Shown here piece after piece: positions 1 through 37,919 of a stretch of DNA of 37,919 nucleotides (within the stretch, counting starts at the first letter, position 1; each line of letters opens with the position of its first letter). The DNA comes from a virus: the IMG/VR virus record IMGVR_UViG_3300044844_000044, positions 1-37,919 of that record; one strand, 5' to 3'. The notes under the pieces were generated by a model. The model was not told where the DNA came from. It ran no database searches and saw only the letters and a list, made by a program, of their open reading frames with translations. A program made the position numbers and the translations under genes.

Positions 1-156
1 ATGTTGTGTTTCGTTATCCTCATATTTTTTGCTCCAGTTAGTAGATTTGTAAACCATTCCATTTTTTAATGTTACCTTCCATTCGGTAGGTGATAAAAGT
101 TTTCCTTCTTCATCAATGTCAAAGTATTTAAACCATTCAGTTGTTTTGTAGTTCAT
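1..156 (-). CDS. Small hypothetical protein, left copy (3' part lies beyond the window start)
   Basis: This is the first 52 codons of the gene found complete at 36658-36846. It begins with ATG at 156, overlapping the helicase stop by 4 bases. The single base that differs from the right copy (position 85, g versus a) is a synonymous Thr codon change in this frame, which supports this frame as coding. The gene is cut by the window edge, not broken. Confidence 0.6.
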   Translation of the reverse strand, partial: MNYKTTEWFKYFDIDEEGKLLSPTEWKVTLKNGMVYKSTNWSKKYEDNETQH

Positions 157-1064
157 ATTGGCTTATCCCTATATCTCAATGACTTTGGTTGAAACCATAA
201 TGGTATAGATCCTTCCCACTCAAAATGCCTTTGCTTATTCACAGCCATAAATCCATCTGGAACAATCCTTGCATCTTCTTCAGAAAGTTTACCTTCCATT
301 ATGTCTTTTTCTTTTTTCTTATTACGGTACACCGAAATACAATTATCTGCAAGATTTGTTATTGTCGCAGAACCTGCCACGTCAAACTTACTAGGTGTGT
401 GCGTGGTTTCGTCTATTGTTTTTCTGCTGTGTGCGATGAGGTGAATGTGAACATTTAAATCTCGTGCAGCGATACAAAGCTGGTCAACAAACTTCTTCTG
501 GCCATTGTAATCATCCTCATTAATAGAACACTTCATTAAACTATCTACCACGAAATGCTGAATACCTAACTGCTCAGCTCCATAGTAGATAACAGATAAT
601 ACTGCTGTAGGATTTGTGCTGCCTAACTGGTCGTACAAAAATAATTTTCCAGTTGCATCATTGCAAAACTGAGTTATCGCACTCTCTGTTGGTTCGTTAG
701 TTCCTACTGATTGACGGATATAGCGTGCTAATGTGCTCCTGCAACTCATCTCAAAAGAACATATCATAACCTTGTAGTTCTCAATAAGTTTAAGCGTTAC
801 ATAGCTCAAAAGCATTGATTTGCCATGTCCTGAATACCCCGACCAAATACTCGTCTCCCCTAAACGAAGTCTGAAATTCTCTGCTTTATCAAACGGAAGA
901 TACGCACCGCTTTGTATCTCGCCAGAGAAGTATCCAATAGTAGATTCAATAAAAGTATCTGGACTCTTAATTTTACGGTACTCATCGCTATCCCTTCTAA
1001 AAAAATAATTTTTAATCTTATCCTCATCAACAATGAGGCTCTGTACTTTATCTTCTAATGACAT
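153..1064 (-). CDS. DnaB-like replicative helicase, left allele
   Basis: A 303-residue RecA-fold ATPase of the DnaB/Twinkle type, which would unwind the replication fork. Visible motifs are Walker A GYSGHGKS (residues 76-83), a catalytic Glu in CSFEMS (about 105), Walker B FVVDS (171-175) and the sensor-like AHSRK (211-215). It lacks the N-terminal primase-binding domain of bacterial DnaB and matches helicase-only phage proteins in length. The start overlaps the end of the primase zinc-domain gene, so the two are translationally coupled. The other allele at 36843-37754 differs at about 12 residues (for example TSIWSG versus TTVWSG), all outside the ATPase motifs. Confidence 0.88.
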   Translation of the reverse strand: MSLEDKVQSLIVDEDKIKNYFFRRDSDEYRKIKSPDTFIESTIGYFSGEIQSGAYLPFDKAENFRLRLGETSIWSGYSGHGKSMLLSYVTLKLIENYKVMICSFEMSCRSTLARYIRQSVGTNEPTESAITQFCNDATGKLFLYDQLGSTNPTAVLSVIYYGAEQLGIQHFVVDSLMKCSINEDDYNGQKKFVDQLCIAARDLNVHIHLIAHSRKTIDETTHTPSKFDVAGSATITNLADNCISVYRNKKKEKDIMEGKLSEEDARIVPDGFMAVNKQRHFEWEGSIPLWFQPKSLRYRDKPI

Positions 1065-1465
1065 AAATCGTATGCCTTTCTTAATCTTTGAGATGCTACC
1101 ATTAACCTATCGTGATCTTCTAGTGGTAGCTTTTTCCCATTAGCAATATCAATAGCCGCTAAAGCTACAAGCAATGTTTCATTAGAGATAGATTTTAAAA
1201 CAGAATACGGATTAAATGGTTTTGATACTGGCTTAAAGTCACCAATACGCTGAGGCACAATATCATCAAAAGTTAATCCAACAGCACCAAGTATATCATT
1301 GGCTGCACATCCTGCAAAGCAATTAATAAGAATTCTACCATCTGGAAGTTCTTTTACCCCTAGCGATGCTGTTCTATCATCATGAGCTGGACAGATACAT
1401 TGGTATTCGTCTTTGCCAGATTTGTAAGATTTTTCAAAGTGACCGATAAACTCATAAATATTCAT
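1055..1465 (-). CDS. Primase-type zinc-binding domain protein (CHC2-like)
   Basis: A 136-residue protein with the DnaG/CHC2 zinc-finger pattern: CPAH at residues 25-28, then CFAGC at 49-53. Between these lies the usual beta segment (DGRILINC). No TOPRIM catalytic domain follows, so it is a stand-alone zinc domain. It probably recognises template for a host primase or works together with the adjacent helicase. It overlaps both neighbours by a few bases: the helicase start downstream and the stop of the initiator-like gene upstream. The first part of the second allele is not visible because the window ends inside it. Confidence 0.8.
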   Translation of the reverse strand: MNIYEFIGHFEKSYKSGKDEYQCICPAHDDRTASLGVKELPDGRILINCFAGCAANDILGAVGLTFDDIVPQRIGDFKPVSKPFNPYSVLKSISNETLLVALAAIDIANGKKLPLEDHDRLMVASQRLRKAYDLCH

Positions 1466-28960: not shown

Positions 28961-29194
28961 CTAAAATATTTTCCACGACTTACTTTTAATGTCGCTAGTC
29001 TTAGCGATTGATTGTAAGTGAGCCATGAGTTCGTTGTAACAAGCTATACGTTGATATGCTTGTTCTCTAATGTCTTGTTCTTGATCTTGTGAGTATATAA
29101 TTTTGTCAAGGTGTTGAGCCTTTAACTCTTCCATAACATCAAGAAAATATTTGTCCTGTAATAACGCTTTTATTGAATCTATTTTATTTTGCAT
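28961..29194 (-). CDS. Small helical protein between portal and scaffold
   Basis: A 77-residue protein with KDKYFLDVMEEL-like helices (LLQDKYFLDVMEELKAQHL and REQAYQRIACYNELMAHL). Similar short proteins commonly sit between portal and scaffold. Its start abuts the portal stop. Function unknown. Confidence 0.6.
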   Translation of the reverse strand: MQNKIDSIKALLQDKYFLDVMEELKAQHLDKIIYSQDQEQDIREQAYQRIACYNELMAHLQSIAKTSDIKSKSWKIF

Positions 29195-31245
29195 TATTGT
29201 CCTGTTTGAGCTTTGTTAAACTTTTCTAGTGTATCTATAACTGTTTTAGTTTGTGAGTTACGAGTTACTTCAGATTGGTTAGAAGCGTCAGCTTGAATCT
29301 TAAATGCTTGCATCTGCAATTCTAATTGCTTACGAGCATTATCTAATTCCATTTGTTGTTTTTCTAACTCTAGTTTAGCCATCTCTGTTTGTTGTTTGAG
29401 CTGAGCTTTCTCACGTTCAACTTGAGCCAAGATTTCAGCTGCCCTAGTATTTGGATCTGGCTGTTCTTGTGATGCGTCTTGAATAACTTGCTGTTCAATC
29501 TCTGGAGTAATCTCATTCATGAATGCTGTAGCATCTTTGAATCCAGCCATGTGCACAAACTTAGCCAATGTATCTCTGTATTGTTTTAGTGAGATAAGAG
29601 GATTGCTTACACCATATGCTTGTAAGATTTGTTCTTGCTTACCTAAGATCATTTGCATAGTAGCAAGTTGTTCTTGACGTGAGCCAGTACCTAAACCTAC
29701 GTTGATTGTAACGTTATATTCTGTATCCCATTCACGAGGATTGAAGGGCACAAACTTACCATTAATACGAAGCGTTCTTACTGTGTCTTGATACTTGCAT
29801 AGCAATTGCAAGATACCTTTGAATAGTGATTTAACACCTGTTTCTGCAAAGATACGAGCAATCAATTCTAACTTACCATAAGATGCATTAGACATTGTAG
29901 CTACTGCTGCAGCTGTAACGTTTTGCAATACATCTGGACTTAAACCTTGTTGAGCATCACTAACACCTGTACGTTTAGCTTGAACTCCATCTAAGTACTC
30001 TAGCATTGGGAATGATTGTGCAGCACTTGACTGTACTGTTAATGGTACGATTGCACCTGCATTCTTAACACGAATCACACCACCTGCTGTAGATGTTAAT
30101 AAGTCATCTAAATTTACTTGGCCTTCAACTGCAGCAATGCGTGAGTTGTTAGTTAGGTATAAGTTATCTAACATCTGACGAGTTACAGTAGACTTAATTA
30201 ATTGAATATCTAATGTACGATCAGCTAGTGATTGGCCATAGAATTTATGTGGAATTGGTATTGGGCAGATAGAATGGAATGGTACATAGTCACATTCCAT
30301 ATCTTCTAGAATCTCATTAGATGCATATACAATTCTTCTTAGTTCTGCAATGCCATCTTCATTATAATCTACTTGGATGTAACACTCATACACTTCTACT
30401 AATTCCATAGAAGTATCTTGAGTGCCCATGCTGTTAGGTTGTTCACCACGAGAGTAACGAGCAATTCTTTCTGGGCTAAACTCTAATGTATCGCCAGACG
30501 CTAATGACTCTACCATGTCTTTATCAAAACCCATCGCCACTAACTCAGAACGAGTAAGCATTCTACGATGTGCTACGAATGGTGAATCTTGAATTGTTTT
30601 TGCACGTTTAGATATTAAGAACTCTTCTGGAGGAACATTTTCTACAACAATATTACCTTTGTTCTTAGTGCGTTTTAATGTAACGTTGTTTGATTTGCTG
30701 TATGTTGTTTCACCAGTCATCTCATCAACTGTTGATTCTTCAATGATTTCCTGTGATGCAAGTTCTACTTCTGGATCTTGCATGATCATCATTAGCTCAT
30801 CATCTGATAAACCTTCATACTTTTCTTTAGTAACATCTGTATTGTCATTCCAGTATGCTTTAACTACACCAGTCTTTTGTAGTAACGCATCTTTAAACCA
30901 GTTATGTAGGATTAAGAATCCATCGTTATCTTTATAGAATACATGATTAACTAATTGTGTGGCCTGCTCAGCATTTTGTTCATCGCCTTCTTTAGCTGGT
31001 GCAAATTCAACTACATTATCACTAGAAGTAAATACACGAATGAGTTGTGGCAATGCACCGTCAACTGCCTCAGCAACTTCACCTGTAACGATTGTAGACT
31101 TACCCTCAACTTCGTTACCATATGGCTCACGAAGATAATACTCAAGGGCTTGTTGACGTTCATCTGTGGTATCTGTTTCTAGATAACCTAATGAGTCATC
31201 TATCTCAGCCTCAATAATCGTCTTTAATTTGTTAATATCAATCAT
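29194..31245 (-). CDS. Portal protein (P22/SU10-type)
   Basis: A 683-residue protein: NEVEGKSTIVTGEVAEAVDG, DALLQKTGVVKAYW, VPPEEFLISKRAKTIQDSPF, MECDYVPFHSICPIPIPHKF and YGQSLADRTLDIQLIKSTV are typical portal segments. A long C-terminal coiled region (EREKAQLKQQTEMAKLELEKQ) follows. It would form the dodecameric vertex that receives DNA from the terminase. Confidence 0.88.
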   Translation of the reverse strand: MIDINKLKTIIEAEIDDSLGYLETDTTDERQQALEYYLREPYGNEVEGKSTIVTGEVAEAVDGALPQLIRVFTSSDNVVEFAPAKEGDEQNAEQATQLVNHVFYKDNDGFLILHNWFKDALLQKTGVVKAYWNDNTDVTKEKYEGLSDDELMMIMQDPEVELASQEIIEESTVDEMTGETTYSKSNNVTLKRTKNKGNIVVENVPPEEFLISKRAKTIQDSPFVAHRRMLTRSELVAMGFDKDMVESLASGDTLEFSPERIARYSRGEQPNSMGTQDTSMELVEVYECYIQVDYNEDGIAELRRIVYASNEILEDMECDYVPFHSICPIPIPHKFYGQSLADRTLDIQLIKSTVTRQMLDNLYLTNNSRIAAVEGQVNLDDLLTSTAGGVIRVKNAGAIVPLTVQSSAAQSFPMLEYLDGVQAKRTGVSDAQQGLSPDVLQNVTAAAVATMSNASYGKLELIARIFAETGVKSLFKGILQLLCKYQDTVRTLRINGKFVPFNPREWDTEYNVTINVGLGTGSRQEQLATMQMILGKQEQILQAYGVSNPLISLKQYRDTLAKFVHMAGFKDATAFMNEITPEIEQQVIQDASQEQPDPNTRAAEILAQVEREKAQLKQQTEMAKLELEKQQMELDNARKQLELQMQAFKIQADASNQSEVTRNSQTKTVIDTLEKFNKAQTGQ

Positions 31246-32538
31246 CTATACAATCCATTTATTATTAATGTTAAGAGGTTGACCCCAATCAGAGCCACTT
31301 TCATCTAAGCCTACAGCGAGATATCTAAAGGAATCGCTAGAATGACTGCACCAGTCGTGTAGTGGTGTGTCAAAGAATACGTTACGCTTCTCATCATATG
31401 TTCTACGATAGTTTCGTAATGCATCTATACCTTGCTTAACGTCTTTATCAAACCAGCATCTAGGAAGTAATCTGCGTACTGCTTGAATTCCATCTGCAAC
31501 TGGTAGTTTCTTTACTACTGTAATCTCTAGTCCTGCTTCTTGTAACATCTCTTTACGAGATTTGCCTGTACCTAATTCTCTTACCTCTACATCATGAGGT
31601 AACAACTGTACAGCATTATCCCAACCATTATCACGCAACCAAGCAACATAAGTATCCAATCCTTGTCCATGATTTTCATAGAAATCTACAAGTCTTATTT
31701 CCTTACCTACTACCTGTGCTACCCAAATTGCTGTGCTATCTGATATACCTAAGTCCCATGCACAATATGTTTTTGCTAGTTCTTCTCTAGGTATTGTTGT
31801 TATCTTGTTATTCTTTTCTAAGTCATTAATAATCTGGCCATAGTATGAACCTTCTACAGCTGCATTAAATGAGCATTCAAATTCTTGGTTATACTTATCT
31901 TCACCCATCTCATTTTTAGCTGAGGCTAATTCATTTGCATCTAGTAACTGTGTTTGTGATGCTTTAAACTCTAATAGCTTCCATTGATCGTCACCTTTGT
32001 CAGCACGATCTCTTAAGTCTTTAAAATGATTGTTGCCTTTAGGTGTACCAATAAACATTGCCCAACCTAAACGATCAGATAATGCTGGTCTAACAACCTC
32101 ACTAAATATACTTGGGTTTACGTCACCAATCTCATCAATCACTACACCATCTAAATAGATGCCACGAAGTGAGTCTGGTGAATCTGCTCCGTATAATGAA
32201 ATACGTCTGCCCATAAAATCAACTCTTAACTCTGCTATGTTAGCAATGGCACCTAGTGGTCTTGTATAGTTAAGTAAGTAATCCCATGCAATACGTTTAC
32301 ATTGTGAGTACGTTGGAGCAATGTATGCAAATCTTGGATTAGGTTTATCACACAGTAGTGATGAATGTATCAACTGGTTTATGGCTGATACTGTCTTGCC
32401 CATACGTCTATGAGCTACCACTACTGTGAACCTGTTGTCCTTCACCATTTGGTGAATCAACTTCTGTGGAGCACGAGGAGTATACTCAGTAGATACTATG
32501 TCCTCGTCATCGTAAACTGTTTCAATCTCTTCAGACAT
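31246..32538 (-). CDS. Terminase large subunit
   Basis: A 430-residue ATPase-nuclease. Walker A AHRRMGKT (42-49), Walker B VVIDEIGD (132-139) and the coupling motif IGTPKG are visible. The RNase-H nuclease region starts CAWDLGISDSTAIWVAQV and ends HDWCSHSSDSFRYLA. It would package genome-length DNA from concatemers. The portal start codon directly follows its stop. Confidence 0.92.
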   Translation of the reverse strand: MSEEIETVYDDEDIVSTEYTPRAPQKLIHQMVKDNRFTVVVAHRRMGKTVSAINQLIHSSLLCDKPNPRFAYIAPTYSQCKRIAWDYLLNYTRPLGAIANIAELRVDFMGRRISLYGADSPDSLRGIYLDGVVIDEIGDVNPSIFSEVVRPALSDRLGWAMFIGTPKGNNHFKDLRDRADKGDDQWKLLEFKASQTQLLDANELASAKNEMGEDKYNQEFECSFNAAVEGSYYGQIINDLEKNNKITTIPREELAKTYCAWDLGISDSTAIWVAQVVGKEIRLVDFYENHGQGLDTYVAWLRDNGWDNAVQLLPHDVEVRELGTGKSRKEMLQEAGLEITVVKKLPVADGIQAVRRLLPRCWFDKDVKQGIDALRNYRRTYDEKRNVFFDTPLHDWCSHSSDSFRYLAVGLDESGSDWGQPLNINNKWIV

Positions 32539-33740: not shown

Positions 33741-33914
33741 TTATTTTTTCTTTTTTTTGCTCATGCCTGCTTCGCTTAACGCAATAGCAATACCTTGAGC
33801 TTTAGATTTAACTACCTTGCCACCCTTACCAGAATGAAGTGTACCAGCCTTGTACTCACCCATCACTTTTGCTACTTTCTTCATCTTGCCTGCTTTTGTT
33901 GTTGGCTTCTTCAT
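33741..33914 (-). CDS. DUF6496-like small basic protein
   Basis: A 57-residue ORF with MKKVAKVMGEYKAGTLHSG, then KSKAQGIAIALSEAGMSK and a Lys tail. The GTLHSG, V-x-K-S-x-x-Q-A/G-I-AIALSEA pattern is typical of DUF6496. AAGGA lies 7 bases before the ATG. It overlaps the preceding zinc-ribbon ORF in another frame. Confidence 0.75.
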   Translation of the reverse strand: MKKPTTKAGKMKKVAKVMGEYKAGTLHSGKGGKVVKSKAQGIAIALSEAGMSKKKKK

Positions 33915-34020
33915 TAGGTATCCTTAATTTAAAATGCGTTAGGTTTGTACAGTCTGGACAAATATCATAACCTGTTGTGTCAAACGGTTGGCCACATTCA
34001 GAACAAATAGATACTTGCAT
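33856..34020 (-). CDS. Zinc-ribbon ORF (first late ORF)
   Basis: A 54-codon ORF starting at ATG 34020: MQVSICSECGQPFDTTGYDI and CPDCTNL give a CxxC-x(12)-CxxC zinc ribbon. The C-terminal half overlaps the DUF6496 gene in another frame and may be dispensable. It begins 11 bases after the late terminator T-run, so it would be the first gene read when late transcription gets through. Confidence 0.55.
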   Translation of the reverse strand: MQVSICSECGQPFDTTGYDICPDCTNLTHFKLRIPNEEANNKSRQDEESSKSDG

Positions 34021-34030
34021 ACACTTTACT

Positions 34031-34057
34031 TAAAAAAAATGCCCACAGAACGTGGGC
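34031..34057 (-). terminator. Late leader terminator (tR'-like)
   Basis: On the minus strand GCCCAC (34057-34052) pairs perfectly with GTGGGC (34046-34041) around a 5-base loop, followed by an ATTTTTTTT run (34040-34032). It is a textbook intrinsic terminator, lying about 55 bases downstream of the late promoter start and directly upstream of the first late ORF. It would block the whole late operon unless antitermination acts. Confidence 0.9.
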
Positions 34058-34062
34058 TAATA

Positions 34063-34078
34063 AACAACGGAGGTTGTT
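34063..34078 (-). other. First hairpin of the late leader
   Basis: AACAAC (34078-34073 read on minus) pairs with GTTGTT (34068-34063), loop CTCC. It directly precedes the terminator hairpin. Two adjacent hairpins in a short leader may help antiterminator loading or block RNA polymerase backtracking. Confidence 0.5.
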
Positions 34079-34117
34079 GAGCACGAAAGTAATAGATACA
34101 ATTATCCCAACCCCCAG

Positions 34118-34146
34118 ATTATACCACCAAATGTTACTGCTGTCAA
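34118..34146 (-). promoter_or_regulatory. Late promoter (pR'-like), perfect sigma70 consensus
   Basis: TTGACA (34146-34141), exactly 17 bp, TATAAT (34123-34118) on the minus strand. The -35 box lies within 10 bases of the stop of the Q-like gene. A second -10-like hexamer, GATAAT (34106-34101), follows 11 bases downstream of the first, about where a sigma-dependent promoter-proximal pause occurs in lambdoid late promoters. Confidence 0.85.
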
Positions 34147-34149
34147 GTT

Positions 34150-34473
34150 CTAGTTAGGTATTCTGCGTGTAGCAATAGTTAAAAGGTTATCTAATGCTTG
34201 GTTCATGTGGTAATCTTGCAACACTTCTGCCTTTGATCCTAAGTATTTATGATACACAGCATTCTGTTGCCTCTCTGGTAATGAATGGATTATAGCGTCA
34301 ATAGTCTTAACGTGATCGGCTGTCATGGATTCGTACATCTCGTCAAAAGAAGTACTAGTGCCACCCCCATACATACCAGATGATTTGTTTGGGTATCCCA
34401 AAGACTTTGATGTACTCTGCTTCATATAGGCAGACCATGCCTTTAATAAATCAAGTAAATGATTCATTGTCAT
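34150..34473 (-). CDS. Putative late-gene antiterminator (Q-like)
   Basis: A 107-residue protein: MNHLLDLLKAWSAYMKQS, GMYGGGTSTSFDEMYESM, TIDAIIHSLPERQQNAVYHKYL and LDNLLTIATRRIP. The pattern, with a C-terminal helical DNA-recognition-like part, is that of small phage late regulators annotated as antiterminator Q or ArpU-like. The strongest support is context: a perfect promoter and then a terminator lie immediately after it, the gene order of lambda-type Q-pR'-tR'. It would let RNA polymerase read through into the 26-kb late operon. It overlaps the upstream small gene by 4 bases. Confidence 0.55.
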   Translation of the reverse strand: MTMNHLLDLLKAWSAYMKQSTSKSLGYPNKSSGMYGGGTSTSFDEMYESMTADHVKTIDAIIHSLPERQQNAVYHKYLGSKAEVLQDYHMNQALDNLLTIATRRIPN

Positions 34474-35984: not shown

Positions 35985-36099
35985 CACCATCCTCCATGAT
36001 ATGAACTTTAATATATTTATAAGCTGCCTCAATTGCTACAAATGGAATTAAGAATGGCACTAACATAAAGCCAGTTATACCTACAATAAATCTAAGCAT
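35977..36099 (-). CDS. Single-pass membrane peptide
   Basis: A 40-codon ORF: MLRFIVGITGFMLVPFLIPF is a membrane helix, then AIEAAYKYIKVHIMEDGDG. GAGGA precedes the ATG, which overlaps the end of the Ref-like gene. Its last codons contain the ribosome-binding site of the next gene. Function unknown. Confidence 0.5.
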   Translation of the reverse strand: MLRFIVGITGFMLVPFLIPFVAIEAAYKYIKVHIMEDGDG

Positions 36100-36442
36100 T
36101 TATTTTCCTCAATGTATCGGCAAGCAATTCTTCTTCAGTACCAAATTTATTTTCAAATGTTTCTTGTCCTGCATGAAGTGCTACACCATGACCACCATGT
36201 TGGTGATGCAATGGGCACAATGGAATTGCGTGCATAAAATCATTACGCATTCCTACTCCCATACCATGTCGTATGTGATGTATATGTGGAGGTGAATAAC
36301 CATAACCTTCTCTTAAACAAACAATGCAACCCAGTTGTGATAACTTATCATAATGTTGCTTCTCTGCTTTGGTCAAAATGAAATCCCAATCCGATTGCAA
36401 ATCGCTGAATGTCTTGAATGTAATTTTTAAACTCATCAACAT
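36092..36442 (-). CDS. Ref-like RecA-dependent nuclease (HNH fold)
   Basis: A 116-residue protein: KLSQLGCIVCLREGYGYSPP, HIHHIRHGMGVGMRNDFMHA and IPLCPLHHQHG with the end TFENKFGTEEELLADT match the P1 Ref family, which cuts at RecA-made D-loops and enhances recombination. The start is uncertain: ATG at 36442 overlaps NinB by about 95 bases, while a TTG at 36376 (TKAEKQHYDKLSQLG) would match the usual family start. Confidence 0.8.
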   Translation of the reverse strand: MLMSLKITFKTFSDLQSDWDFILTKAEKQHYDKLSQLGCIVCLREGYGYSPPHIHHIRHGMGVGMRNDFMHAIPLCPLHHQHGGHGVALHAGQETFENKFGTEEELLADTLRKINA

Positions 36443-36713
36443 TTAAAGACGTAGTACTCTTTATAGCATAGATTTCAGAACCTGCAACTGTTTTCTTTTC
36501 TGATAGATATTTGAAACGAAACATATCATGCAGCTCTTCTTCAGAATATCCTGTGTAATCACCAAGCTCTTTTAATATTGCCCAGTAGTAATCATTTTGA
36601 GAATTACTTCTCTTAGATTTAAACTTACCAAGTTCTAAGTCACCTTCTTTTTCAAAGTCATGACGATGAATTTTTGCTACTGCTAATAATATGTTGTGTT
36701 TCGTTATCCTCAT
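36348..36713 (-). CDS. NinB-like recombination protein
   Basis: I prefer the ATG at 36713 (MRITKHNILLAVAKIHR), which has GGAG 8 bases upstream, over the ATG at 36752. The block KFKSKRSNSQNDYYWAILKEL, EELHDMFRFKYLSEK and STTSLNVDEFKNYIQDIQRFA is that of the NinB/Orf-like family that helps phage recombination at ssDNA. 121 residues. It lies between helicase and Ref-like genes. Confidence 0.7.
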   Translation of the reverse strand: MRITKHNILLAVAKIHRHDFEKEGDLELGKFKSKRSNSQNDYYWAILKELGDYTGYSEEELHDMFRFKYLSEKKTVAGSEIYAIKSTTSLNVDEFKNYIQDIQRFAIGLGFHFDQSREATL

Positions 36714-36846
36714 ATTTTTTGCTCCAGTTAGTAGATTTGTAAACCATTCCATTTTTTAATGTTACCTTCCATTCAGTAGGTGATAAAAGTTTTCCTTCTT
36801 CATCAATGTCAAAGTATTTAAACCATTCAGTTGTTTTGTAGTTCAT
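36658..36846 (-). CDS. Small hypothetical protein after the helicase (right copy)
   Basis: A 62-residue protein: TTEWFKYFDIDEEGKLLSPT, then VTLKNGMVYKSTNWSKKY, ending in a Ser/Asn-rich tail. It starts with ATG overlapping the helicase stop. The WFKYFDIDEEGKL pattern resembles the start of a nuclease-like or recognition module, but I cannot assign it. The same gene begins at 156 in the left copy. Confidence 0.55.
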   Translation of the reverse strand: MNYKTTEWFKYFDIDEEGKLLSPTEWKVTLKNGMVYKSTNWSKKYEDNETQHIISSSKNSSS

Positions 36847-37754
36847 ATTGGCTTATCCCTATATCTCAATGACTTTGGTTGAAACCATAATGGTATAGAT
36901 CCTTCCCACTCAAAATGCCTTTGCTTATTCACAGCCATAAATCCATCTGGAACAATCCTTGCATCTTCTTCAGAAAGTTTACCCTCCATTATGTCTTTTT
37001 CTTTTTTCTTATTACGGTACACAGAAACGCAATTGTCTGCAAGATTGGTAATTGTCGCAGAACCTGCCACGTCAAACTTACTAGGTGTATGAGTTGTTTC
37101 ATCTATTGTTTTTCTGCTGTGTGCAATAAGATGAATGTGAATATTTAAATCTCGTGCTGCAATACAAAGTTGATCAACAAACTTCTTTTGGCCATTGTAA
37201 TCATCCTCATTAATAGAGCACTTCATTAATGAATCTACCACGAAATGCTGAATACCTAATTGCTCAGCTCCATAATAGATAACTGACAATACTGCTGTAG
37301 GATTTGTACTTCCTAACTGATCGTACAAAAATAATTTATTAGTTGCATTATTGCAAAAATCAGTTATTGCACCTTCTGTAGGTTCGCTAGTACCTACTGA
37401 TTGACGGATATATCTGGCCAATGTACTTCTGCATGACATCTCAAAAGAACAGATCATAACCTTGTAGTTCTCAATAAGTTTAAGCGTTACATAGCTGAGA
37501 AGCATACTCTTGCCATGTCCGCTGTAACCAGACCAGACTGTCGTTTCCCCTAAACGAAGTCTGAAATTTTCCGCTTTATCAAACGGAAGATACGCACCGC
37601 TTTGTACCTCGCCAGAGAAGTATCCAATAGTAGATTCAATAAAAGTATCTGGACTCTTAATTTTACGGTATTCATCGCTGTCCCTTCTAAAAAAATAGTT
37701 TTTAATTTTATCCTCATCAACGATAAGGTTCTGTACTTTTTCTTCTAATGACAT
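36843..37754 (-). CDS. DnaB-like replicative helicase, right allele
   Basis: The same 303-residue helicase as at 153-1064, with about 12 substitutions: EEKVQN versus EDKVQS near the start, TTVWSG versus TSIWSG, a patch around residue 123-139 (SEPTEGAITDF versus NEPTESAITQF), and VSVY versus ISVY. All ATPase motifs are intact (GYSGHGKS, FVVDS, AHSRK). Most DNA differences are silent, so both alleles are under purifying selection. Confidence 0.88.
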   Translation of the reverse strand: MSLEEKVQNLIVDEDKIKNYFFRRDSDEYRKIKSPDTFIESTIGYFSGEVQSGAYLPFDKAENFRLRLGETTVWSGYSGHGKSMLLSYVTLKLIENYKVMICSFEMSCRSTLARYIRQSVGTSEPTEGAITDFCNNATNKLFLYDQLGSTNPTAVLSVIYYGAEQLGIQHFVVDSLMKCSINEDDYNGQKKFVDQLCIAARDLNIHIHLIAHSRKTIDETTHTPSKFDVAGSATITNLADNCVSVYRNKKKEKDIMEGKLSEEDARIVPDGFMAVNKQRHFEWEGSIPLWFQPKSLRYRDKPI

Positions 37755-37919
37755 AAGTCGTAGGCCTTTCTCAATCTTTGTGATGCCACCATTAGTCTAT
37801 CGTGATCTTCTAGTGGTAGCTTTTTCCCATTAGCAATATCAATAGCCGCTAAAGCTACAAGCAATGTTTCATTAGAGATAGATTTTAAAACAGAATACGG
37901 ATTAAATGGTTTTGATACT
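37745..37919 (-). CDS. Primase-type zinc-domain protein, right copy (partial)
   Basis: This is the C-terminal end (about 57 codons) of the gene at 1055-1465. It reads to the same AYDLCH end with the stop at 37745-37747, and its 5' part is cut by the window edge. Bases upstream of 37820 are identical to the left copy. Confidence 0.75.
   Translation of the reverse strand, partial: VSKPFNPYSVLKSISNETLLVALAAIDIANGKKLPLEDHDRLMVASQRLRKAYDLCH

Follow-up and report, generated by a model that had tools for sequence, protein, structure and literature searches.

The window analysed here, the 37,919-nucleotide viral record IMGVR_UViG_3300044844_000044, carries a compact regulatory block immediately behind a small Q-like gene. 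As judged from its sequence, the block very probably constitutes a Q-type processive antitermination switch for the late genes, resembling the pR'/tR' arrangement. This explanation is the best supported because the promoter-terminator block is kept in relatives and moves together with Q. The kind of switch is already known, and the protein family is sparsely described. Past the promoter, the order is the GGGATAAT element, a structured leader of approximately 80 nt, an intrinsic T8 terminator and the late genes. The individual features are as follows:

34150-34473, minus strand: Q-like gene, 107 codons (107 aa)
34146-34141, minus strand: -35 element TTGACA, 3 nt past the Q stop codon
34123-34118, minus strand: -10 element TATAAT, TG-extended and pR'-like, spacer of 17
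34111-34076, minus strand: 5'-proximal RNA hairpin GUUGGG/CUCAAC, predicted transcript start at about 34111
34108-34097, minus strand: pause-like GG-N8-TA (T-1, A+1), overlapping the -10-like hexamer
34106-34101, minus strand: -10-like hexamer GATAAT (TGGGATAAT) in the initially transcribed region
34067-34072, minus strand: CTCCGT motif, unpaired within the linker and retained by most clades
34057-34041, minus strand: intrinsic terminator stem-loop, tR'-like, 7-bp stem
34039-34032, minus strand: T8 tract of the terminator, one A between stem and tract
33856-34020, minus strand: first late ORF, zinc-ribbon-like, 54 aa
33741-33914, minus strand: second late gene, DUF6496 ORF (PF20106, E 8e-9)
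8009-32538, minus strand: remaining late genes, all co-oriented (terminase 31246-32538, portal 29194-31245, scaffold, major head protein and others)

Source phage and genome organization

The two ends of the window (1-1229 and 36691-37919) share a 1.2-kb overlap with 92.8% identity, and the contig therefore over-wraps a circular map; the ends derive from two strains or represent a diverged repeat. Around the circle, the minus strand presents in order the replication genes, helicase, NinB, a Ref-like nuclease, Q, the promoter, the terminator and the late genes, an arrangement that corresponds to the lambdoid gene order. The Ref-like RecA-dependent nuclease lies at 36092-36442 within the Q operon (PF16786, E 2e-11). 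The co-oriented late run spans about 26 kb (34020 to 8009) and includes the endolysin. In most relatives, either a zinc-ribbon-like or a DUF6496 ORF is found directly after the terminator. The window probably represents a small aquatic phage whose hosts are methanol-using bacteria. No match to an integrase family was returned among the window ORFs scanned, and the phage is compatible with a lytic lifestyle.

The promoter behind the Q-like gene

A preliminary description of this DNA had placed TTGACA-17-TATAAT within 10 bases of the gene, and the element is indeed found 3 nt past the stop codon. No other 12/12 sigma70 site occurs on either strand of the window, for which first-order Markov simulations give an expectation of 0.11. 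Across 75 aligned promoters the -10 element is invariant or nearly so; the spacer between -35 and -10 is weakly conserved and not kept across clades. No Q-binding element could be defined between -35 and -10 in these aligned promoters, and no direct repeat could be delimited there. The -35 element of many clades contains the stop codon of Q (gctTGACA).

The Q-like protein

The gene had been described as small and helical, in agreement with the AlphaFold AF2 models (pLDDT 79), in which helices span residues 3-23, 43-64, 67-78 and 86-104 of the 107 and a disordered loop occupies residues 22-42. The loop is conserved (LGYPxKSxGMxxGGxSTS), and many invariant residues are located within it, namely L25, G26, P28, G37, G38 and S40. 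21Q has been described as a sigma-R4 domain joined to an RseA-like helix (PMC6606751). Its ring in the RNA exit channel is made by loops L1/L2 together with H2, and AlpA adopts a 21Q-like fold without sequence homology (PMC9371919). By analogy, the conserved loop of the Q-like protein is probably an RNA-channel nozzle, since its invariant residues cluster at the place taken by the ring loops in 21Q and AlpA.

Searches of Pfam with the window protein returned no antiterminator family; PF06530 gave no match at E<=1, and its curated cut-off (26 bits) was not reached. PF06530 was matched by 13 of 60 relatives at E<=0.01 (best 1e-4) and was the only Pfam family matched by more than one of the 60 at this threshold, while the Venkman homologue scored 16.4 bits for a cut-off of 26. 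Weak matches to Sigma70_r4_2 were seen in 18 of 32 relatives at E<=1. Alignment of the Q-like family with 21Q/QuuD using hhalign gave a probability of 9-12% (E 0.003-0.004), and in that low-probability alignment the N-terminal LxxWxxW region is colinear between the two. A PDB sequence search with the window protein returned nothing, and lambda Q (PF03589) was absent from all search results.

The AF2 models were used to search for structural homologues with Foldseek. The best PDB matches were mostly sigma-R4 domains, sigma/anti-sigma complexes and 21Q, all with E>1. The 21Q chain 6jnx_P ranks 2 and 7 among the PDB matches (E 2.8-4.6, TM<0.3), so that the comparison with Q structures places 21Q near the top of the list at non-significant scores. 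The predicted fold appears to be sigma-R4-like, as 21Q is, with structural matches that are all non-significant. Together with the profile matches of its relatives, the models suggest that the window protein is remotely akin to the 21Q/PF06530 type. No membership of PF06530 is claimed for it, because the protein itself has no family match, the hhalign result is of low probability and the Foldseek matches are non-significant. The switch had initially been called lambda-style; the layout of a compact Q, strong promoter and terminator bears this out, but the protein itself is remotely similar to 21Q/PF06530 and not to lambda Q.

Relatives and conservation of the block

Viral contigs were scanned twice with profiles, which yielded relatives down to about 40% identity. 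Among named records, the window protein is closest to proteins of uncultured Manatee Spring podovirus MW202481 (43% identity) and of Methylophilales phage Venkman (gp37, 38%), both annotated by their depositors ('phage antitermination protein Q' / 'antitermination-like protein'). The family had been thought poorly described, and a relative occurs in only 3 of 50,697 phage records that bear a name. Two scans of bacterial and archaeal genomes returned no relatives. Matches to the Scuro and Babayka phages (E~3) were taken as chance. One isolate among the relatives infects OM43-clade Methylophilales; other members are of freshwater or wastewater origin.

Sufficient downstream sequence was available for 114 distinct relative gene ends, and a promoter was sought from -30 to +60 of the stop codon. 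Matches of at least 10/12 occur at 69/114 Q ends, compared with 67/1372 (4.9%) for ORF ends other than Q on the same strand of these loci, and perfect 12/12 promoters at 43/114 and 0/1372, respectively. A terminator lies at most 140 nt away in 70 of the 79 loci having a promoter of 9/12 or better. In five loci (L046, L050, L052, L054 and L063) an apparent methyltransferase ORF is found between Q and the late promoter, and the block is kept 680-950 nt downstream, past the ORF. The promoter, pause element and terminator are all kept in MW202481. In EBPR podovirus 1, gp41 is a much more distant relative (37%); behind it come TTGACA-17-CAGAAT, then a terminator, then TerS. The positive control, ST64T (Q against the 21Q PDB chain, E 2e-91), has TTGACA inside the Q end, followed by CATAAT and a terminator.

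When the Q proteins are clustered at 90% identity, the block is found in 24 of 37 clusters; in the other 13, none is near the gene in the fetched DNA. Gene and block are retained together in the former, and the arrangement that the earlier description named as a refutation, a gene kept without promoter and terminator beside it, occurs in the latter; for this reason the claim is limited to block-carrying clades. The 13 block-less clusters are mostly Venkman-like. Venkman is the one complete block-less genome, and here the late genes and Q point towards each other, so that adjacency of Q and block is impossible. The only 12/12 promoter of Venkman (position 1478, minus strand, with GGATAAAC past the -10) was considered as a late promoter and rejected, as it is absent from close relatives and has no terminator nearby.

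Pause-like elements

As noted previously, a GATAAT hexamer is present downstream of TATAAT, with exactly 11 bases between the two, or 17 bp from start to start. The -10-like spacing of E. coli distal pauses and lambda pR' is ~11 bp (PMC7876045), and the 21Q structure (bubble +3 to +15) implies a spacing of about 13-14 bp. The -10-like element of the window accordingly departs from the lambda arrangement, being 17 bp from the -10 rather than 11-14 bp. The hexamer is weak in several clades, and it is enriched overall only if T at the last position is not required (p 0.10 with T).

In the relatives, GG(A/G/C)(T/C)A is nearly universal 9-12 nt past the -10. The universal pause consensus is G-10 Y-1 G+1 (PMC7876045), and GGN8YG (GG at -11/-10, Y-1 G+1) is found at about +14 to +17 in 41/64 distinct leaders. 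Its weighted frequency is 0.62, against 0.044 in shuffles (maximum 0.18), for a motif that was itself prior knowledge and was sought only after the leaders had been viewed; none occurs elsewhere in the leaders. In the window's clade the +1 base is A rather than G, but the -10-like hexamer there (TGGGATAAT) is the best one. In many relatives the GGN8YG consensus pause is better conserved than the -10-like element.

The leader RNA and terminator

Two hairpins had been proposed for the leader. The terminator with its T8 run is confirmed; the first hairpin is not well described as CAAC..GTTG and is better drawn as GUUGGG/CUCAAC. The whole window leader is more stable than all 200 shuffles (z -2.8), and the first 40 nt of the leaders are modestly above shuffles (mean z -1.26 for 18 representatives). 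The predicted transcripts, 51-84 nt in length, comprise a 5'-proximal hairpin, a linker and a terminator in 64/64 distinct leaders. In the AAGCCTGAC-type terminators of a large clade, four pairs are changed on both sides and the loop ACUCUCUCC is invariant. Covariation within the block, raised earlier as a check, is thus seen in terminator stems that change yet remain paired. Interpretation of the ITS as a protein-binding DNA dyad was rejected, as close relatives change the sequence and keep the pairing, which fits RNA better, short of proof.

CTCC(G/A)T is present in 13/18 representatives versus 0.56 in shuffles, an excess to which shared ancestry contributes in part, the sequences being related. 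In the leaders of relatives the motif occupies either the linker or the loop of the terminator. Duplexes between the leader, taken as antisense, and phage translation starts were not above shuffles, and no target was found; an Rfam scan of the window returned no match. The structured leader and its kept CTCCGT motif are the part worth following.

Proposed mechanism and alternatives

In the mechanism we propose, Q would be expressed as the last gene of the replication and recombination operon. The consensus promoter behind it would be used constitutively, with transcripts stopping about 70-80 nt on, at the terminator. Polymerase may pause early in the leader, in the GGGATAA region, where Q, bound to promoter-region DNA through its sigma-R4-like helical domain, could join it. 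The conserved flexible loop of Q probably makes the RNA-channel 'nozzle', and the modified polymerase would then pass the terminator, allowing the 26-kb late region to be transcribed.

It is possible, although we consider it rather unlikely, that the terminated leader is a conserved regulatory RNA, with its 5' hairpin, CUCUCCGU in the linker or loop, and terminator, and that Q loading depends on a consensus elemental pause near +14 to +17 instead of a lambda-spaced sigma pause. The block would then double as a small-RNA gene of the phage besides serving to load Q.

The small protein could conceivably be a classical late activator of the RinA/ArpU kind that recruits polymerase, with the hairpin merely attenuating. 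The sigma-R4-like HTH similarity would suit such a role, and 11 of 32 relatives match phrog_248 'transcriptional activator' at E<=1 (best 4e-4). However, a promoter at or near full consensus with an extended -10 needs no activator, the terminator is kept beside the promoter in 70/79 loci, and both named relatives carry an antitermination annotation. An activator therefore appears improbable.

Less probable again is a block that serves chiefly to encode a phage small RNA (structured, ~50-85 nt, with an accessible CUCUCC-type motif) and just happens to lie behind the Q-like gene, the late genes using other promoters. The uniform fold of the 64 leaders, the recurrence of CTCC(G/A)T and the invariance of the ACUCUCUCC loop on varying stems are all consistent with such a small RNA, and there is a precedent in StxS, a 74-nt phage sRNA that arises from terminated pR' transcripts. 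Against it, no strong duplex with phage translation starts rises above shuffles, and the adjacency of promoter and Q and the late operon directly downstream are left unexplained. A small-RNA role could be additional to the Q switch. Finally, that the terminator serves only to end the early operon, the consensus promoter being a constitutive late promoter of the ordinary kind with leaky termination and the protein having an unrelated task, is no more probable, as the promoter is upstream of the terminator and its own transcripts are cut too, and gene and block occur together in 24/37 Q clusters and also after ORF insertions, even if the gene stands without the block in Venkman-type relatives.

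Knowledge of Q-type late switches stems mainly from temperate lambdoid phages that infect enterobacteria. The Q-type switch favoured here would extend the lambda-type logic, by way of a protein of ~107 residues, to small aquatic phages. It would offer a function for genes now mostly labelled hypothetical, and offers dozens of natural promoter-pause-terminator variants for testing what Q loading needs.

Comparison with known systems

Venkman gp37 is a direct homologue (38%), but its late genes are convergent and it has no adjacent block. AlpA of Pseudomonas aeruginosa is likewise a promoter-loaded antiterminator ahead of a terminator; it differs in having inserted helices and in regulating a cell-death programme, and no sequence relation to the window protein was seen. 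With lambda Q at pR'/tR' the window shares its logic and the order of ninB region, Q, late promoter, terminator and late genes, whereas the proteins have no detectable sequence relation and the lambda -10-like element is about 11-12 bp from the -10, compared with 17 bp in the window. The 21Q and ST64T-type Q systems (PDB codes: 6jnx, 6p18; PF06530 neighbourhood) differ in the position of the -10-like element, which is further downstream in the window, and in the protein, which has 107 aa here versus 162, falls under the PF06530 cut-off and carries the LGYPxKSxGMxxGGxSTS loop. The 5'-proximal leader hairpin of the window is not evident in ST64T. In both, however, the 3' end of Q overlaps or touches a TTGACA promoter, a -10-like element lies past the start, a terminator is directly downstream and followed by the late genes, and the protein is helical and sigma-R4-like, as predicted here for that of the window.
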